A stretch of 41,952 nt of DNA. Source: Bacteroidota bacterium (GTDB lineage: Bacteria > Bacteroidota > Bacteroidia > Palsa-948). The position numbers and the translations under genes were made by a program. Location of the stretch: NCBI GenBank assembly GCA_023251625.1, contig JAHEYK010000007.1:1-41952 (forward strand), in the 5' to 3' direction. Numbering within the stretch: the stretch's first letter is position 1; each line of letters opens with the position of its first letter. The notes below the pieces were generated by a model that saw only the letters and a list, made by a program, of their open reading frames with translations, did no database searches and had not been told where the DNA came from. Positions 15,376 through 27,488 of the stretch are shown piece after piece.

Positions 15376-17232
15376 ATGAAGGTATTTACCCCTTTTTTGT
15401 CTTTAAATTTCCTTTTTTTATTATCGTACTGTATTTCCTATGCCCAAACAATCCATGGAATTGCCGCGGGTAATCACCATAATCTTGTAATATGTAACGG
15501 TGGCGCATCACTACAGGGCTGGGGGTATAATATGGAGGGAGAATGTGGTGATGGAACAACCACTTCGCCGAGATCTTCTGGTGTTACTGTAGTCTCTGGA
15601 TCGGGAGCTTGCTGGACCCCAACACCTGCTTTACATTTTATAGATGTTGCCTGTGGGGATGATTTTAGCATGTGTCTTTCAAACGTGGGTACAGATGCGG
15701 GCTGCGGTTCTCTTCCCGGTGGTATCGTATTCTGTTGGGGCATAAATACGTATGGGCAAATTGGGGATAACTCTACTACCAACAAGTCCAATTCTAGACG
15801 AGTTGGAGGGGCCATCCAGGGTTCAACGGTAGTGGCGATTGCAGCAGGTGGGCATACCGCATATGCGCTGATGAGTGGTGGAGCCAGTATGTATGCGTGG
15901 GGAAGAAACGACTTTGGGCAAACTGGCAACGGCAATACTACTTCTCCTCAAAAACTACCGGTAGCGGTGAATCTTGCAGCGCTTGGCGCCCGTGTGATTA
16001 CAAAAATTTCTGCAGGTAGCGCTCATTCTATGGTGTTGTGTAGTGATGGCACCGTTTGGTGCTGGGGATATAATGCGTATGGTCAACTGGGGGATGGTAC
16101 TACTACCAACAGTTCGACTCCGGTGGCTGTTAACCTTACGGCTCTTGGTGCCCGTACAGTTACAAAAATTTCAGGAGTTGGTATGCATTCCATGGCATTG
16201 TGCACCGATGGCACCGTTTGGACATGGGGGCATAATCCTAATGGAGAACTGGGTGATGGTACTTCCGGCACCGATAGGTTAACGCCGGTGCAGGTGGTAA
16301 CAGGTGCATCGGGTTGCGCAACAAACCTGTGCAGCATCACCGATATCGGTACCGGCAATGGATTTCCCAATACTTCGATTGCTTTAAAAAGTGACGGCAC
16401 AGTATGGACATGGGGAAAGGATGATCTGGGAATGCTGGGAACCAACGCAATAGCGGATGGCGCGAATTCTTTATCTCCTGTTCAAATGACTGGAATTTCT
16501 ACCGCAAACGCCGTAGCCGTGGGAGGGCAGCATACTTTAGTTGCTCTGAAAAACGGAAAAGTAATGGATTCAGGGGATGGACTGAATGGTGAAATGGGAG
16601 ATGCTTCGACAACCAGTCAATCCCTGGCTGTGATTGCGACAACGGTGTGTACAAGTATTCTTCCGGTGGATATCCTTTCATTCAATGTGTCTTACAAATC
16701 AGGAGAGGTGAATTGCGAATGGAGTACGGCTTCTGAATTCAATAATGATTATTTTGAAGTTGAGCGGAGTGTGGATGGAAAAGATTTCGTTTCAGTCGGA
16801 AATGTAAAGGGGGCAGGCAATTCTTCAGCAATTAAAAAATATTCATTCATTGATGAATCTGTTTATTCAACAGGTCAGGTAATGGGCCGATCAACTATTT
16901 TCTATCGCCTCAAACAGGTTGACTATGACGGTAAGTATGAATATTTCGGGCCAGTTGCCGTGTTGATCTCTCCTTCGGATGATTGGAAGCTGTTGTTTCA
17001 AACTGTTTCTTACGATGAACAACTAAAAGGGACATTACTTCTCCCAGAAAGAACATTAGCATCCATCGATATTTTGGACCTGCAGGGGAGGGTGATCAGG
17101 CATGATCAAATAAATGCCGAAAAAGGTTCCAATTACCTTTCATTTGACGTGAATGATATCAGCAAGGGGGCCTATTTAATAAAAGTATCTAACAACGAAA
17201 ATCAGGTATTGAAGAAGTTTGTGAAATTGTAA
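15376..17232 (+). CDS. RCC1-repeat propeller protein with T9SS C-terminal domain
   Basis: 618 residues. Signal peptide MKVFTPFLSLNFLFLLSYCISYAQ. Residues ~25-430 carry about seven RCC1/ATS1 repeats (WGYNAYGQLGDGTTTNSSTP, ITKISAGSAHSMVLCSDGTV, VWTWGHNPNGELGDGT), enough for a seven-bladed propeller. A linker typical of Bacteroidota secreted proteins follows (LPVDILSFNVSYKSGEVNCE, then ASEFNNDYFEVERSVDGKDF, YRLKQVDYDGKYEYF), then the type A sorting domain (IDILDLQGRVIRHDQI, ISKGAYLIKVSNN, KKFVKL). RCC1 repeats outside eukaryotes are mostly of unknown ligand, so only surface binding is inferred. Its stop is 8 bp from the end of the converging dacB. Confidence 0.86.
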   Translation: MKVFTPFLSLNFLFLLSYCISYAQTIHGIAAGNHHNLVICNGGASLQGWGYNMEGECGDGTTTSPRSSGVTVVSGSGACWTPTPALHFIDVACGDDFSMCLSNVGTDAGCGSLPGGIVFCWGINTYGQIGDNSTTNKSNSRRVGGAIQGSTVVAIAAGGHTAYALMSGGASMYAWGRNDFGQTGNGNTTSPQKLPVAVNLAALGARVITKISAGSAHSMVLCSDGTVWCWGYNAYGQLGDGTTTNSSTPVAVNLTALGARTVTKISGVGMHSMALCTDGTVWTWGHNPNGELGDGTSGTDRLTPVQVVTGASGCATNLCSITDIGTGNGFPNTSIALKSDGTVWTWGKDDLGMLGTNAIADGANSLSPVQMTGISTANAVAVGGQHTLVALKNGKVMDSGDGLNGEMGDASTTSQSLAVIATTVCTSILPVDILSFNVSYKSGEVNCEWSTASEFNNDYFEVERSVDGKDFVSVGNVKGAGNSSAIKKYSFIDESVYSTGQVMGRSTIFYRLKQVDYDGKYEYFGPVAVLISPSDDWKLLFQTVSYDEQLKGTLLLPERTLASIDILDLQGRVIRHDQINAEKGSNYLSFDVNDISKGAYLIKVSNNENQVLKKFVKL

Positions 17233-19649: not shown

Positions 19650-22600
19650 ATGAAAAATCGTATATTATACTTCTTCGGCTGTTTATTGTCTATTGTTTAC
19701 CCGCCCTTGGCGAGGCTCGCCCTTTTGGGCGGCTGTCTATTGTTTACTGCCTTTGGTTTCTCACAGGATGTAAAATTCACACACATCGGTGCCGAGCAGG
19801 GCTTGTCTCAAGCTTCGGTTAACTGCATATTGGAAGATAGCAAAGGCTACATGTGGTTTGGTACGCAGGACGGGCTCAATAAATTTAACGGGTACGAAAT
19901 GGTTGTTTACAAGAATGACCCTGCAGATTCAAATTCGCTTTCCGGTAACTATATTGACTGTTTGTATGAAGACAGCAAAGGAACTATCTGGGTGGGTACG
20001 CGCGGTGGGGGCCTGAATGCGATCAATACTTTTCTCGGACGTATAACGCGTTATGGGAACGATCCGAAAAACGACAATTCCATCAGCGGCAATCAGGTGA
20101 AGTGTATCCTTGAAGATAAAAACGGAACCTATTGGATAGGTACTACGTACGGACTCAATTCTTTTGATGGAAAAGCAAATGTGTTCAAAAAATATATTCA
20201 CGAAACAGACGACACACTCAGTATCAATGGATTTAAAGTGGAATCTGTTTATCGTGATAAAAAAGAGCGCTTGTGGATATGTACGCAGGATGGAGGACTG
20301 AACTTGTTTAATGAAAAGAAACAAATCTTCAGCTGCTATATTGACCATTCGTCCGGCATAGGAGAAGAATTTTTCAACCGAACTAAATCTGTGATCGAAG
20401 ATGAGTCAGGCATCTTTTGGATAGGTACCGATAACGGGGGGCTGGTTTCTTTTGATCCGGATAAGAAAATATTTCTTAAGCGCATCACGCATAATTCGGA
20501 TGACCAGGAAAGCAGCATACCTGAAAACAGGATCTCTGCCATTTGTGTGGATGCGAAGGGAGCCCTGTGGGTAGGATCCAAAAACAGCGGTATCTCCTGT
20601 GTGAACAATCGCAATGGCTCGGTAGTGAATTATAGAAATAACCAGTATGATATTCAAAGTCTCAGCAACGATGGAGTAAATGATATCTATAAGGACCAAG
20701 AAGGGAATATGTGGGTAGGGACAGAAGGCGGAGGAGTAAGCGTCTACTTTCCCAATGCGGCCCGCTTTAAACATTTTCATAAGGATATTAAAAACGATAA
20801 TGCATTTCAGTCAAATACCGTGTTTGGCATCCTGCAGGATAAAGAAGGCTTGATCTGGATCGGCACCATGCATGGTGGTATTACCACCATTGACAGGGGG
20901 AAAAATATTTATACTAATTATGGTGATGGAACTGATAGATCGCTTTCAAGTGCACGAAGCAACAGTGTACTTTCTCTTTTTGAAGATGATGATGGCTTGA
21001 TCTGGGTAGGAACCTGGGGCGGAGGGCTTAACACCTATGACAAAAAGACAAAAAAAATAAACCGCATCATTGAAAAGGGAGCCATCACAGGTATTTCCAA
21101 GGGATATGGAGATGTGGTGTGGGTGAGTACCTACGGTTACCGGGGATTGTTCTCTTATAATAGGTCAGAAAAAAAACTGACTACCTATGGCAAAGAGAAC
21201 GGGTTGAGTGCTTCGAATATTTTCTGCGTATATGAAGATAATGAAAGAAGAGTTTGGATCGGAACAGCCGGTGAAGGTTTGAACATGATGAATGTACGTA
21301 CCGGGAAAGTAGTAGTGTATAAGAATGAAAAAGAAAAAAATTCGCTTAGTGATAACACCGTGAATTGCATTTTTGATGACCGCAAAGGAAATTTATGGAT
21401 AGGAACGGCAAACGGATTGAATAAATTTGATAAAGAGAAACAAAGTTTTGTTCAGTACAATGAAAAGGATGGGTTGCCTAACGGAAATGTTTGGGGAATA
21501 CTGGGTGATAAAAGAGGGAACCTGTGGATAAGCACCAATAGAGGTATTTCCCGTTTCACACCGCGCATAGAAAATACGGAAGGTTCGGCATTTAAAAATT
21601 TTACCGTGCATGATGGTCTGCAGGGAGACGAGTTTGCGCAGGGCTCTTATTTTTTGAACAAACAAACCGGCGAAATGTTCTTTGGAGGGCTCAATGGCTT
21701 CAATGCATTCTACCCCGATAATGTTTCCGATAACAAACATATCCCTCCTGTATTTATCACCTCGCTGAAAAAATTCGGAAAGGAAGCGGTGCTCGATACG
21801 AGCGTGGCCGACAAAAAACAGTTGAAGCTTTCCTATAAAGATAATTTCCTCTCCTTTGAATTTGTGGCACTTGATTATATTTTTCCGGGAAAGAATAAAT
21901 ATTCGTTTATGATGGAAGGGCTGGAAGGTAATGATTGGTCGCCCCCTTCCACCAGGCGTTATGTGAGCTACACCGGACTTCCGGGTGGAGAGTATACTTT
22001 TCGTGTAAAGGCCTGCAACAGTGATGGGGTATGGAATGAGGCCGGTACGGCCATTCATATTAAAGTGATACCACCCTGGTGGAAGACCAATATATTTTAT
22101 TCATTGTGTGTGCTGTTCATCATTTCATTTGTGTTTGGTTTTATACGTTATCGTACGGACAAAATAGAGAAAGAGAAGAAAATACTGGAGCAAAAGGTGG
22201 CTGAACGCACCGAGGAGCTTGCACAGAAGAATAAAGACATCACCAGCAGTATTCAATATGCAAAAAGGATCCAGCAGGCGATCCTGCCCACGAATGAGCA
22301 GATACAAAAATATTTTCCCGAATCATTTGTCCTGTTCAAGCCCAAAGATATTGTGAGCGGAGATTTTTATTGGTTTGGCGAAAAGAATGGCAGGCAGATT
22401 GCTGCCTGTGTAGATTGCACCGGCCACGGAGTTCCTGGCGCGTTCATGAGCATGATAGGCGCTAACCTTTTGAATCAGATCATTCTTGAGAATGGGATCA
22501 CAGAGCCGGCTGCTATTTTATCTGCGCTCAACCTGGGTGTGCGTTCAGCACTCAAACAAGATACGCATAATGAGATAGAGACCACCGATGGAATGGACAT

Positions 22601-22994
22601 AGCGATATGTTCCATCGATCAGGAAAAACGGGAAGTCCAGTTTGCCAGTGCCCTCAGGCATTTGGTGTTGATCAGCGATCATGCCATTGAAAAAATTGAT
22701 GGTGATAAATTCTCTATCGGTGGAGGAAAATTTGGAACAGAATCTGTATTCACAAATCACAGCAAAGTTTTAAAGAAAGGAGATATGCTGTATATGTTCT
22801 CCGATGGGTATGCCGATCAGTTTGGAGGCGAAAAAGGGAAAAAGCTGATGATCAAAAAACTTCACGAGTCCCTTTTAAATATTCATGGCATTACTGTTGC
22901 TGAGCAAAGAACTGCGTTGGACAAGACCTTTGAAGACTGGCGCGGAACCCATTCTCAGGTTGATGATGTGCTGGTGATAGGAATACGTTTGTGA
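19650..22994 (+). CDS. Periplasmic two-component-type propeller sensor fused to cytoplasmic PP2C/SpoIIE phosphatase (SiaA-like role)
   Basis: 1114 residues. After a signal sequence (to ~38), residues ~40-700 hold about 12-14 Reg_prop repeats (GLSQASVNCILEDSKGYMWF, GTQDGLNKFNG, IWVGTRGGGLN), then a Y_Y_Y domain (~728-805: FEFVALDYIFPGKNKYSFMM, LPGGEYTFRVKA). One membrane helix (~814-834) and a coiled coil (EKKILEQKVAERTEELAQKN) lead to a PP2C domain (~870-1114). Its metal-binding acidic residues are visible in DIVSGDFYW, DCTGHGVPGAFMS, DGMDIAIC, FSDGYADQFGG and QVDDVLVIGIR. In hybrid two-component sensors this propeller drives a histidine kinase; here the output is a Ser/Thr phosphatase. With SiaB- and SiaC-like genes 1.4 kb downstream the likely substrate is phospho-SiaC (inference). 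Confidence 0.9.
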   Translation: MKNRILYFFGCLLSIVYPPLARLALLGGCLLFTAFGFSQDVKFTHIGAEQGLSQASVNCILEDSKGYMWFGTQDGLNKFNGYEMVVYKNDPADSNSLSGNYIDCLYEDSKGTIWVGTRGGGLNAINTFLGRITRYGNDPKNDNSISGNQVKCILEDKNGTYWIGTTYGLNSFDGKANVFKKYIHETDDTLSINGFKVESVYRDKKERLWICTQDGGLNLFNEKKQIFSCYIDHSSGIGEEFFNRTKSVIEDESGIFWIGTDNGGLVSFDPDKKIFLKRITHNSDDQESSIPENRISAICVDAKGALWVGSKNSGISCVNNRNGSVVNYRNNQYDIQSLSNDGVNDIYKDQEGNMWVGTEGGGVSVYFPNAARFKHFHKDIKNDNAFQSNTVFGILQDKEGLIWIGTMHGGITTIDRGKNIYTNYGDGTDRSLSSARSNSVLSLFEDDDGLIWVGTWGGGLNTYDKKTKKINRIIEKGAITGISKGYGDVVWVSTYGYRGLFSYNRSEKKLTTYGKENGLSASNIFCVYEDNERRVWIGTAGEGLNMMNVRTGKVVVYKNEKEKNSLSDNTVNCIFDDRKGNLWIGTANGLNKFDKEKQSFVQYNEKDGLPNGNVWGILGDKRGNLWISTNRGISRFTPRIENTEGSAFKNFTVHDGLQGDEFAQGSYFLNKQTGEMFFGGLNGFNAFYPDNVSDNKHIPPVFITSLKKFGKEAVLDTSVADKKQLKLSYKDNFLSFEFVALDYIFPGKNKYSFMMEGLEGNDWSPPSTRRYVSYTGLPGGEYTFRVKACNSDGVWNEAGTAIHIKVIPPWWKTNIFYSLCVLFIISFVFGFIRYRTDKIEKEKKILEQKVAERTEELAQKNKDITSSIQYAKRIQQAILPTNEQIQKYFPESFVLFKPKDIVSGDFYWFGEKNGRQIAACVDCTGHGVPGAFMSMIGANLLNQIILENGITEPAAILSALNLGVRSALKQDTHNEIETTDGMDIAICSIDQEKREVQFASALRHLVLISDHAIEKIDGDKFSIGGGKFGTESVFTNHSKVLKKGDMLYMFSDGYADQFGGEKGKKLMIKKLHESLLNIHGITVAEQRTALDKTFEDWRGTHSQVDDVLVIGIRL
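19676..19736. repeat. Palindromic repeat with 54-bp in-frame period inside the signal-peptide region
   Basis: CGGCTGT(T/C)TATTGT occurs at 19676 and again at 19730, a period of 54 bp (18 codons). Between the copies lies a nested hairpin: CCGCCC (19701-19706) pairs with GGGCGG (19727-19732), and GGCGAG pairs with CTCGCC inside. It adds YPPLARLALLGG-like residues to the signal sequence and keeps the frame. Confidence 0.7.
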
Positions 22995-23005
22995 GATATA
23001 TTTTG

Positions 23006-23013
23006 TATTTTTG
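23006..23013 (+). promoter_or_regulatory. -7 promoter element TATTTTTG before the 105-aa protein gene
   Basis: Exact TAnnTTTG match, 34 nt before the ATG at 23048 and just after the stop of the phosphatase gene. Suggests independent expression of the small gene. No -33 TTG at proper spacing. Confidence 0.45.
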
Positions 23014-23047
23014 GGAAAACTTTTAACATCCACCAAATACTACTATC

Positions 23048-23365
23048 ATGAACGTAATGATCTGTTTTGAAGTAAGCGGAAAACAAGAGCAAGTAAGAGA
23101 ACAACTTGCCTCTATGGGTTATATGTCAAGCTGGAGAATCGTGCGTGGTCGTGATGAGCTGACTTTTAATCTTCCTTCTACTGCTATGTGGCGTAAAGGA
23201 GAGAATATGAGCCCTGCAAAAGCAAAAGAAGATCTTAAAAAAGCGACCAGCCAGTTGAAAGTGAAAACACTTAGGGCAGTTGCTGTTGTGGTAGGCAAAT
23301 GGGATGGAATGACCGGAGATTCGCAAAGCATCGAGTCGTCAGTTTCAGAGGCCGCAGAAGCTTAA
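23048..23365 (+). CDS. Small protein of unknown function (105 aa)
   Basis: 105 residues, starting MNVMICFEVSGKQEQVREQL. The order of predicted elements (short beta strand, helix, strands, helix, strand AVAVVVGKWDG) suggests a ferredoxin-like alpha/beta fold, and the basic segments WRIVRGRDE and MWRKGEN would allow nucleic-acid contact, but I cannot name a family. There is no signal peptide or membrane segment, so it should be cytoplasmic. It is placed between the PP2C sensor and the SiaB/SiaC pair, with an own -7 box, and the following lipoprotein gene starts 28 nt after its stop. A function in the partner switch is possible but not shown. Confidence 0.75.
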   Translation: MNVMICFEVSGKQEQVREQLASMGYMSSWRIVRGRDELTFNLPSTAMWRKGENMSPAKAKEDLKKATSQLKVKTLRAVAVVVGKWDGMTGDSQSIESSVSEAAEA

Positions 23366-23393
23366 TCGCGGATATTTTCATAAAGATTTCAGG

Positions 23394-24245
23394 ATGCGAA
23401 AAAATATCTTCAGGATAACACTGTATAGTTTTGTAATTTTTTTGGTGCTGATCGCAGTTCACTCCTGTAGAAAGGACAGGCCGGATACAGATACACAAGC
23501 TTCGGTAGATAACAGTATATGCGAGGGAGAGTTCTCACGGATATTTCCTCAAACCAGCAACATTGCCGTGGGCGATAGCGGAGTGCAAAGAAAAGGAGGA
23601 GACATTCCTGTCCCTTTTTCCGGTTGTCCCGATCATTATATTGACTCAGCAGATATTGCCGATGGATTTCCGGTAACCATGTGGCTCTATTTCGGAACCG
23701 ATTCAGATGGTGACGGCATCTATGAAACTCCGTGCACAGGCCCCGATGGCAGGTCAAGGGCAGGGGTCATAGAAGCTGTGTTCAGTGATAAGTGGCATAT
23801 GCCAGGAGCCAACATGACCATGACCCTTCAAAACTATTTTGTAAATAGCATTCAATATGAAGGAACTGTTTCAGTGACCCGTAATGTCAATGGCTTTAGC
23901 CATACTGTGACGAACGGAAAATGTTCCCATGGGTCTGCCTGGAGCATATCCTGGAATTGTTCCCGCACAGTTACTTTATTGGGTGAACTTACCCAAACCT
24001 TGAGCGATGATGTTTGCCTGGTGTCGGGCAGCGCGAGCGGAACAGATCGTAAAGGAGGTGCTTTTTCAGTTACAATTAACACGCCTCTGAGGCGGCAAAT
24101 GGACTGCCCCTATATCACAAAAGGAGTACAAACCATCAAAATACAGGGCAAGAAGGATAGAACGATCGATTACGGAGACGGAACCTGTGATGACAAGGCA
24201 AAGCTTATTATAGACGGTAATGAGTTTGAGTTTAACCTGCAATAA
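23394..24245 (+). CDS. Putative lipoprotein of unknown function (283 aa)
   Basis: 283 residues from ATG 23394. The N-terminus (MRKNIFRITLYSFVIFLVLI, then AVHSC) is a lipoprotein signal with Cys25 as the probable lipidated residue. The mature part is beta-rich with several cysteines, glycine/serine stretches and a DSDGDGIYETPC segment that looks like a small acidic calcium-type loop. Similar large lipoproteins with a repeated GxVxVTRNVNGxxHTVTNGKC pattern are common in Bacteroidota and mostly unnamed; I do not assign a role. The gene is 28 nt behind the small gene at 23048, likely cotranscribed with it. Confidence 0.75.
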   Translation: MRKNIFRITLYSFVIFLVLIAVHSCRKDRPDTDTQASVDNSICEGEFSRIFPQTSNIAVGDSGVQRKGGDIPVPFSGCPDHYIDSADIADGFPVTMWLYFGTDSDGDGIYETPCTGPDGRSRAGVIEAVFSDKWHMPGANMTMTLQNYFVNSIQYEGTVSVTRNVNGFSHTVTNGKCSHGSAWSISWNCSRTVTLLGELTQTLSDDVCLVSGSASGTDRKGGAFSVTINTPLRRQMDCPYITKGVQTIKIQGKKDRTIDYGDGTCDDKAKLIIDGNEFEFNLQ

Positions 24246-24297
24246 ATGCCTCAAAATCACCCAAATAATAGTTTAGTAGGTATAAATAATTAATTTA

Positions 24298-24305
24298 TAT
24301 ATTTG
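24298..24305 (+). promoter_or_regulatory. -7 promoter element TATATTTG of the siaBC pair
   Basis: Exact TAnnTTTG match 58 nt before the ATG at 24364, in the AT-rich gap after the lipoprotein gene. No clear -33 TTG. Confidence 0.5.
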
Positions 24306-24363
24306 TCGCCAAGCGATGCCCCAGGCATTCACCTAACAAATCCAAGACAAGAAGGAACCGCCC

Positions 24364-24906
24364 ATGATGCTCGATATCTACGATTTTTATGATAAGATGG
24401 AACGCAATCATATTTTGCTTTCCTTCAAAGGCGATATTACTTCCGAGTTGCTTACTTCCATTCTTCAGATCATGGAATCTAAACTGGAAAACCTTCAGGA
24501 AGAACCCAAGGTAAAGAAGAAAGTTTACAATGTACTGGTAGAATGTTTGCAAAACCTGTACCATCACATGGATGAGGTGGATATGACGCAAACAGATAAA
24601 ACGCGCTCGGCCATTTTTATGATCGGTAAAGTCGAAAGTAAGTACACGATCATCACCGGCAACTACATCCGCGCAGAAAATGTAAAAGGATTGGATACCC
24701 GCTTGCAGGAGATCAATACCATGACTCAGGAGCAATTAAAAGAATATTACAAACGCGTTCTTGCCAATGGCGAAATGTCTGCCAAAGGCGGAGGAGGATT
24801 GGGAATGATAGACATTGCCCGTAAAACGGGCGAGAAGTTGAATTATACTTTTATGCCTATTGACGATAAATATTCATTTTTCAGTTTAAACATTAAAATC
24901 TCATAA
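24364..24906 (+). CDS. siaB: SiaB-like protein kinase (DUF6272)
   Basis: 180 residues. It has the layout of a GHKL-type ATPase/kinase: N-box ExxxN at E60-N64 in VLVECLQNLYHHMD, and a glycine-rich box KGGGGLGMIDIARK at about 141-154. In Pseudomonas aeruginosa SiaB phosphorylates SiaC, and the phosphatase SiaA reverses this. The gene directly precedes siaC (7-nt gap), so kinase and substrate are made together. The start could also be the next codon, ATG 24367. No membrane segment is present; the protein should be cytoplasmic and meet the PP2C domain of the propeller sensor at the inner membrane. Assignment by family resemblance and synteny; no search was run. Confidence 0.85.
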   Translation: MMLDIYDFYDKMERNHILLSFKGDITSELLTSILQIMESKLENLQEEPKVKKKVYNVLVECLQNLYHHMDEVDMTQTDKTRSAIFMIGKVESKYTIITGNYIRAENVKGLDTRLQEINTMTQEQLKEYYKRVLANGEMSAKGGGGLGMIDIARKTGEKLNYTFMPIDDKYSFFSLNIKIS

Positions 24907-24913
24907 TACCGCT

Positions 24914-25294
24914 ATGGAAAAGATCAACATCGAATCAACACCCAAAACTCCATCAATCAACTTTGATTTTGAAAAAGGGTTTTTGGAAATTAAAGGACGC
25001 TCGATCCCTGAAAACTCAATTGAGTTCTATAAACCTATTGTAGAATCGCTTGAAAAATACGGCAGCACACCCAGTTCGGTGACTACTGTAAATATTCAAC
25101 TAGAATATTTCAACACAAGTTCTTCTAAATGCATCTTGGATGTGTTCAAGAAGCTAGAGTCTATTCACAAGAACGGAAACCAACTGGTGATCAACTGGTA
25201 TTACGAGCAAGACGATGAAGATATGCTCGAAGCCGGTGAAGATTACCAGGCAATCATCAATGTGCCATTTAAAATGATCCAGATCGCAGAATAA
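24914..25294 (+). CDS. siaC: SiaC-like regulatory phosphoprotein (DUF1987)
   Basis: 126 residues, usual length for the family. The conserved segment LEYFNTSSSKCILDVFKKLE contains Thr68; as I recall, Thr68 is also the residue of P. aeruginosa SiaC that SiaB phosphorylates. The fold is like that of anti-sigma-factor antagonists. In Pseudomonas unphosphorylated SiaC binds and activates the diguanylate cyclase SiaD; no GGDEF protein lies in this window, so the target here is unknown. The acidic loop YEQDDEDMLEAGEDYQ is also typical. It is the last gene before a strong terminator and is probably cotranscribed with siaB. Confidence 0.88.
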   Translation: MEKINIESTPKTPSINFDFEKGFLEIKGRSIPENSIEFYKPIVESLEKYGSTPSSVTTVNIQLEYFNTSSSKCILDVFKKLESIHKNGNQLVINWYYEQDDEDMLEAGEDYQAIINVPFKMIQIAE

Positions 25295-26967: not shown

Positions 26968-26997
26968 TTGCTAAACAATTTTAAATTCCTACCTTTG
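26968..26997 (+). promoter_or_regulatory. Promoter TTG-N19-TACCTTTG of the toxin-antitoxin pair
   Basis: TTG (26968-26970) and the exact -7 box TACCTTTG (26990-26997), 19 bp apart. The antitoxin ATG follows 18 nt later, so the leader is short. Confidence 0.75.
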
Positions 26998-27015
26998 AAG
27001 CACAAACACAACCCA

Positions 27016-27213
27016 ATGAGTTCAGTAGTAATAGCCCAATTAAACGACACAGACGCAAACCTCATCGTTCAGTTGATAAAAAAAGTCCATGGAAGGGTTA
27101 AGATACTCAAAGGAAAAGCTTTGGAAGATTTTCATTTCGGGCAGCTCATTGACAAAGGAATGGAGTCCGAAAACGTCTCTCTTTCTAAAATTCGGGCAAA
27201 ACTTCGTAAATGA
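27016..27213 (+). CDS. Probable antitoxin of a RelE-type toxin-antitoxin pair
   Basis: 65 residues from ATG 27016 (a frame from a TTG at 26968 would begin at the -33 element and is rejected). The protein (MSSVVIAQLNDTDANLIVQL...) is helical and charged and ends in the basic SLSKIRAKLRK. I do not recognise a DNA-binding motif such as RHH or HTH with certainty, so the antitoxin call comes from its size and place: its stop codon overlaps the start of the toxin (ATGA), the classic coupled order antitoxin-toxin. Confidence 0.75.
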   Translation: MSSVVIAQLNDTDANLIVQLIKKVHGRVKILKGKALEDFHFGQLIDKGMESENVSLSKIRAKLRK

Positions 27214-27488
27214 AGATTGTTGTTAAGGGCAGCTTTAACCGCGATGTGGATAAAGCCCGGAGCAAAGAGATTCGTCACGCCCTTGATAACAAAATTTCCC
27301 AAATAGAAAAAGCCGGGGATATTTCTCATATTACCGGGATAATTTTACTTGAAGGATATTCTCATCATTACAGGATAATCGTGAGGTCTCAAAATTATTC
27401 TTACCGTATTGGTGCAATTGTTCGCGGAGAAACGATTTGGTTAGTTCGCTTCCTGCCAAGAAGAATTGTTTATAAAGCATTTCCATAG
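27210..27488 (+). CDS. RelE/ParE-family toxin
   Basis: 92 residues, normal for the family. The C-terminal half shows the RelE-type core: YRIIVRSQNYSYRIGAIVRG, then TIWLVRFLPRRIVYKAF, with the arginines and aromatic residues typical of ribosome-dependent mRNA interferases. The first helix pair (VDKARSKEIRHALDNKISQI) fits also. The likely activity is cleavage of mRNA in the ribosome, blocked by the partner encoded just upstream through the ATGA overlap. A ParE-like gyrase inhibitor cannot be excluded from sequence alone. No terminator is evident behind it. Confidence 0.85.
   Translation: MKIVVKGSFNRDVDKARSKEIRHALDNKISQIEKAGDISHITGIILLEGYSHHYRIIVRSQNYSYRIGAIVRGETIWLVRFLPRRIVYKAFP

Follow-up and report, generated by a model that had tools for sequence, protein, structure and literature searches.

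To our knowledge, SiaC, part of a phosphate switch that takes part in controlling biofilms in Pseudomonas, has been described only as the activator of SiaD, a diguanylate cyclase. In Pseudomonas aeruginosa, the kinase SiaB phosphorylates SiaC at a threonine and a PP2C phosphatase dephosphorylates it, and this switch controls SiaD (PMC7647112, PMC8457831), to which SiaC binds in its unphosphorylated form (PMC8457831). The SiaC family (DUF1987) is widespread and has been guessed to modulate adjacent proteins (PMC8457831). On SiaB/SiaC partner switching in Bacteroidota, including the biochemistry of any member, we found nothing in the open-access literature (subscription papers lay outside the search). 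Here we describe such a locus in an uncultured Bacteroidota bacterium of the class Bacteroidia (GCA_023251625.1, contig JAHEYK010000007.1, positions 1 to 41,952, referred to as the window). Five open reading frames follow one another on the + strand at 19650-25294, with intergenic gaps of 53, 28, 118 and 7 bp: a SiaA-like sensor-phosphatase of 1114 amino acids (aa), two genes that we call P1 and P2, siaB and siaC. We propose that they form a SiaABC partner switch with an exchanged output, most likely an ABC exporter that we call F7; judging from sequence, we give this reading about an even chance.

In the sensor-phosphatase, Pfam finds Reg_prop repeats (5e-67, 213 bits), Y_Y_Y (1e-14) and SpoIIE (1e-14), and its scan finds no HisKA, HATPase, REC or AraC domain. 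The solved structures closest to the periplasmic part are Bacteroides hybrid two-component sensors (4a2l, 4e-111, and 3v9f), and the one closest to the cytoplasmic part is the PP2C domain of SiaA (6k4e, 6.5e-39); the Asp motifs for metal binding are kept, namely GDF (904), DCTGHG (922), SDGYADQ (1051) and QVDD (1103). The NCBIfam SiaA model NF038263 matches the PP2C part (aa 836-1113) at 5e-59; owing to its different sensor, the protein stays under the cut-off set for the full-length equivalog. The transmembrane segment between the two parts (aa 814-832) was called from hydropathy alone.

The 180-aa protein matches DUF6272 (1e-43) and the SiaB-family kinase model NF038262 (3e-51, 173 bits, cut-off 85); its Glu60, invariant in 26 orthologues, aligns with the catalytic E61 of P. 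aeruginosa SiaB (6kko), and its GGGGLG nucleotide loop at 142 aligns to the same structure. The 126-aa protein is SiaC (PF09345, 8e-46, over the cut-off), and in the alignment its Thr68 occupies the position of Thr68 in P. aeruginosa SiaC (6kko, 7e6g), within NTSS in both. Of the residues that form the SiaC-SiaD interface, Y65, N67, T68 and S69 are kept, and D79, R103, L107 and D114 are changed. This pattern is not diagnostic, since the SiaC proteins of two GGDEF-bearing operons described below (L266/L267) diverge from P. aeruginosa similarly. The original prediction for this DNA had claimed a 1114-aa Reg_prop/Y_Y_Y and PP2C protein, a SiaB-type kinase and a SiaC with Thr68, and the coordinates and families are exactly as it gave them. 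Its broader claims, that these proteins form a SiaABC-type partner switch and that the sensor is of the Bacteroidetes hybrid two-component kind, agree with the match of families and active-site residues to solved SiaA, SiaB and SiaC and with the best structural relatives.

A search for a conserved neighbourhood had been set beforehand as a test of the prediction, and we ran it in two samples: 40 regions taken from sister genomes and from further families within the class (41 loci with the window) and 80 further loci from GTDB genomes, where several contigs end too early to tell. In the 40 regions, siaC directly follows siaB nearly without exception; among the 41 loci, P2 precedes siaB in 17 and a full-length propeller-PP2C gene stands before P2 in 13. 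The GTDB loci have siaC directly downstream of siaB in 77/80, P2 directly upstream in 57/80 and a propeller-PP2C gene at most three genes upstream in 47/80. Some paralogues are ordered differently, as siaB > siaC > propeller-PP2C (L226, L229, L231, L235, L244). The order propeller-PP2C > P2 > siaB > siaC thus recurs in many families of the class and is a real module, conserved far beyond chance; a lack of conservation, named in advance as the contrary outcome, was not what we found.

Other neighbours were tried as module parts or outputs and set aside. The divergent upstream genes F3, F6 and F8 (methyltransferase-, ZIP-transporter- and peroxiredoxin-like by sequence) are shared synteny, present also without the sensor, and a downstream aldolase, accD and sigma gene (351, 281 and 183 aa; one subgroup) are housekeeping genes. 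Separately, one siaB-siaC pair 74% identical to that of the window lies in a record titled Candidatus Saccharibacteria (L167); mis-binning or mislabelling of a Bacteroidota contig is the probable reason.

The original prediction had also stated that no GGDEF protein lies near the locus. This is true and extends much further: profile searches found no GGDEF domain in the whole of its own genome (a 79% complete assembly), nor in any of 80 class relatives (completeness is 90% or more in 74 of them and 95-100% in the six from the same genus), and the same search was positive in 8 of 14 control genomes. The SiaD-type stalk is likewise missing from the own genome at an E-value of 0.001. That the system is an ordinary SiaABCD whose SiaD lies in the missing fifth of this assembly would fit its incompleteness, but the six same-genus genomes and the 74 other relatives without GGDEF make this very improbable.

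The candidate output comes from these relatives. Clustering of neighbours showed that F7, together with F5 (a lipoprotein-like family of ~300 aa) and F9 (a secreted-type family of ~140 aa), lies convergent with siaC in many loci. F7 proteins have about 1020-1036 aa and consist of a TerB domain, a middle domain that may be FHA-like, an ABC ATPase and an ABC2 membrane domain. F7 occurs in 48 of the 80 class genomes, 47 of which have SiaB, and seven genomes have SiaB without F7 (Fisher 2e-13); with one genome per family the corresponding counts are 30/5/1/20 (1e-9), which removes relatedness only partly. A siaC is found no more than 2 kb away from 25 of the 64 F7 genes, spread over 22 genomes; given siaC numbers and genome sizes, 0.66 such genes would be expected.

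Several kinds of arrangement bring the two together. F7 comes after siaC in PP2C > siaB(s) > siaC > F7 operons (L128, L129, L133, L136, L139, L268), and related runs read siaB > siaC > siaC-like > F7 > F9 > F5 (L137) or siaC > F5 > F7 (L007, L084, L085, L086, L100). Modules of the window type, propeller-PP2C > P2 > siaB > siaC, are convergent with F7 < F9 < F5 at L089, L091, L099 and L107, and with cut or partial sensor genes at L054 and L096. In a SiaC tree, F7-linked SiaC proteins fall in more than one branch, and four changes are required to explain which of them are operon-linked, two or more of these being forced by well-supported branches. A phylum-wide sample of 148 genomes has SiaB over the cut-off in eight and F7 in four, all four with SiaB; three of these were already in the first sample, and the new one, G217, reads PP2C > siaB > siaC > F7 > F5 > F9. 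The own genome has three F7 copies: that on contig C130 belongs to a siaC-F5-F7 run, and the other two have no siaC close by. The original prediction had noted the lack of SiaD and left the output open; the first part stands, and for the second the relatives now yield a strong candidate. As a side observation, at L136, L139, L128 and L129 duplicated or fused SiaB (a ~380-aa double SiaB, or two or three successive siaB genes) precedes siaC-F7; these copies are possibly regulatory or inactive.

We also looked at the part of F7 that might meet SiaC, by modelling residues 1-262 (7 sequences, pLDDT 76) and comparing the model with solved structures using Foldseek. The N-terminus is a helical TerB-like domain whose nearest structure is PG1108 (2h5n, probability 0.99, E 0.15). 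The middle beta domain had no profile match, and a sequence search against the PDB gave chance hits only; its nearest structures are FHA domains (Rad53, PNKP, aprataxin, Mek1) with probability up to 0.75 and weak E-values of 0.3-3. FHA domains bind phosphothreonine. Contact between an FHA-like F7 domain and threonine-phosphorylated SiaC would be a suggestive fit, which we offer as an idea drawn from the model.

Several points weigh against F7 as the output. The window's own siaC does not adjoin an F7 gene, and for 39 of the 64 F7 genes there is no siaC alongside. Among genomes that carry SiaB, seven of the 80 and four from outside the class gave no match to F7, which means that SiaB/SiaC must also act on other targets. 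The linkage of F7 and siaC partly reflects shared synteny, and short contigs are frequent. Finally, the fold matches of the F7 N-terminal region are weak (best E 0.15), and canonical phosphothreonine-binding FHA motifs are not recognisable there.

The most serious competing explanation, which we consider unlikely, is a many-to-many network in which the one SiaB found phosphorylates several SiaC, about 20 PP2C phosphatases with different sensors take the phosphate off again, each SiaC has a target of its own, and F7 is the target of the C130 paralogue only, the window's SiaC acting on some other protein. Profile searches of the own genome found six SiaC, one DUF6272 kinase and 21 SpoIIE phosphatases, numbers that suggest a network rather than an isolated line, and the solitary SiaC paralogues of relatives have varied neighbours. 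The original prediction had counted regular pairing of SiaB/SiaC with another phosphatase in the same genome against itself, and this is half the case: a single SiaB was found for all of these, and the SiaC paralogue on C130 adjoins another phosphatase, while that on C164 lies beside four (tandem TPR–SpoIIE genes, convergent, L008:9421-18001, - strand; its row in our paralogue alignment was out of frame and was left out). Exclusive pairing of SiaC with this sensor therefore cannot be assumed. Against F7 being restricted to the C130 paralogue, window-type SiaC adjoins F7 in at least six other genomes, and in 40 further SiaC loci, sampled outside the F7 loci, the only genes that recur next to siaC are kinases, phosphatases and members of shared synteny. 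A second SiaB may also be missing from the incomplete assembly, since same-genus genomes have up to six SiaB domains. SiaC numbers reach 15 per genome in the class. In the own genome, contigs C135 and C84 carry near-duplicate loci (L010:962-1336, L011:4431-4805) where siaC is flanked by a carboxypeptidase-like gene on one side and by MarR-like and YceI-like genes on the other, with neither kinase nor phosphatase nearby.

A less probable alternative is that SiaC acts on gene expression, via an anti-sigma/sigma factor pair or another transcription regulator. Sigma-factor partner switches are generally built as a trio of a PP2C phosphatase, a HATPase kinase and a STAS-like protein. The SiaC fold also resembles anti-sigma antagonists (PMC7647112). 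No anti-sigma or sigma gene recurs beside the module in the sampled loci; the sigma gene seen in a single subgroup stands downstream of the aldolase and accD.

Still more doubtful is a small membrane-anchored target, a SiaD-type stalk with a transmembrane segment (150-200 aa), in effect SiaD minus its GGDEF domain. The stalk occurs as a small protein in six of the 80 class genomes, in several cases directly behind siaC and there with a hydrophobic, transmembrane-like C-terminus; those of 154-184 aa behind siaC are in genomes G041, G031, G044 and G048, at loci L121:9396-9947 (-), L247:2274-2801 (+), L074:7395-7949 (-) and L072:6993-7976 (-). Six genomes are few, however, and none belongs to the window's own genus.

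Outside the class, the position behind siaC holds other genes again. In the phylum sample, the four SiaB genomes without F7 all have GGDEF. These genomes belong to other classes, and in two of them the loci L266 and L267 read propeller-PP2C (1167 and 1186 aa; Reg_prop, Y_Y_Y and SpoIIE) > siaB > siaC > GGDEF (248 and 276 aa). The GGDEF protein aligns with the SiaD model starting at the stalk (positions 52-252, 5e-52), with a score under the equivalog cut-off. In a third of the four, L264:8091-9155 (+), directly after siaB > siaC, encodes the same SiaD-type stalk, at 49% identity across 83 residues, joined to HisKA and HATPase_c; SiaC may control this stalk–histidine kinase. From these loci and the small stalk proteins we conclude that the gene after siaC is exchangeable, that the class has lost the GGDEF form, and that F7 is the commonest associated gene.

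The features of the locus are collected in Table 1.

Table 1. Features of the SiaABC-type locus (positions in the window)
Feature	Position	Strand	Basis
SiaA-like sensor-phosphatase, 1114 aa: signal peptide, propeller, Y_Y_Y, one transmembrane segment, coiled coil, SpoIIE/PP2C	19650..22994	+	Pfam/NCBIfam, PDB matches, orthologues
Single transmembrane segment (aa 814-832), between periplasmic sensor and cytoplasmic part	22089..22145	+	highest hydropathy window of the protein
PP2C/SpoIIE phosphatase domain with metal-binding Asp motifs	22389..22988	+	profile match, alignment to 6k4e
P1, 105 aa, genus-restricted, optional part	23048..23365	+	no Pfam/NCBIfam match; homologue distribution
P2, 283-aa lipoprotein, all-beta body, constant module part	23394..24245	+	lipobox, synteny, structure model
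SiaB-family protein kinase, 180 aa	24364..24906	+	profile NF038262, alignment to 6kko
SiaC-family phosphoprotein, 126 aa	24914..25294	+	PF09345, alignment to 6kko/7e6g
Thr68 codon, presumed phospho-acceptor (NTSS)	25115..25117	+	aligned with T68 of 6kko/7e6g

The two genes between sensor and kinase had been put forward as extra parts, and this holds for P2 and not for P1. P1 matches no Pfam or NCBIfam family, and its homologues occur only in four of the six same-genus genomes, one of which (G006, L047) has P1 before siaB without a sensor gene upstream. P2, which is constant in the module, has a lipobox Cys25 and a Lys at +3 (K27) that are invariant among homologues, mostly with acidic residues next, a signal that fits the C-X-K-(D/E)2 surface-export signal known from Capnocytophaga (PMC5080379); the window's P2 reads C-R-K-D-R and is partly canonical. 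P2 probably works on the sensing side. Its structure model (pLDDT 87) has no convincing relative in the PDB (best OSBP ORD, E 0.013, TM 0.28), and a hint of a GldM domain in one homologue (0.0011) is below the cut-off.

Elsewhere in the window, an RCC1-repeat protein at 15376-17232 (+) ends in a Por secretion tail, from which we presume that the bacterium has a type IX secretion system. Overlapping genes of 81 and 92 aa at 26968-27213 and 27210-27488 (+) resemble a RelBE-type toxin-antitoxin pair, without an NCBIfam match. A Bacteroidetes-type promoter pattern was looked for at the locus and occurs no more often than by chance.

Returning to F7 as the output, the switch could work as follows. 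A signal would bind the periplasmic propeller/Y_Y_Y part, as in the hybrid two-component relatives, and would alter PP2C activity via the transmembrane segment and coiled coil. By analogy with the P. aeruginosa orthologues, whose residues we compared, SiaB would phosphorylate SiaC at Thr68, PP2C would take the phosphate off, and one form of SiaC would engage the target. Linkage and co-occurrence point to SiaC gating the F7 exporter, with the lipoprotein F5 and often the small secreted F9, and the window's own SiaC, beyond the C130 paralogue, may act on F7 too. More broadly, and with somewhat less confidence, we suggest that in a class without cyclic di-GMP (c-di-GMP) cyclases SiaABC was rewired from a cyclase to an ABC exporter (F7 and F5) with a glycan-type propeller as input, that elsewhere in the phylum the SiaC-binding stalk moved to a histidine kinase or a bare membrane anchor, and that SiaC is a general, exchangeable adapter.

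What makes this worth pursuing is a whole bacterial class with SiaC and no c-di-GMP cyclase, together with a concrete candidate target. One phylum offers SiaD-bearing and SiaD-less forms of the propeller-PP2C–SiaB–SiaC module side by side, and the role of SiaC without SiaD becomes directly testable. If true, a phospho-switch would here be gating a transporter.

Among known systems, the hybrid two-component systems of Bacteroidetes (4a2l, 3v9f) share with the sensor the periplasmic double propeller, Y_Y_Y and one transmembrane segment, but they combine kinase and response regulator in one protein, whereas here the output domain is PP2C. HsbA/HsbD and BgrV/BgrR also place a STAS-like switch protein under kinase/phosphatase control and act on diguanylate cyclases (PMC8457831); they differ from the window module in their STAS proteins and GGDEF outputs. 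The operons L266 and L267 have the same Reg_prop/Y_Y_Y–PP2C > SiaB > SiaC order on one strand, with a SiaD-type stalk-GGDEF gene after siaC and no P2, whereas the window module has P2 and no such gene. SiaABCD of P. aeruginosa (PA0169-PA0172) shares the SiaA-type PP2C, the SiaB kinase and SiaC Thr68, with catalytic residues aligned to 6k4e, 6kko and 7e6g, but has another SiaA input domain and SiaD as output, where the window has a Reg_prop/Y_Y_Y propeller, an added P2, no SiaD and a probable ABC transporter output. On its sequence, the window module is not a SiaABCD system but one of the SiaABC kind, like SiaABCD up to SiaC.

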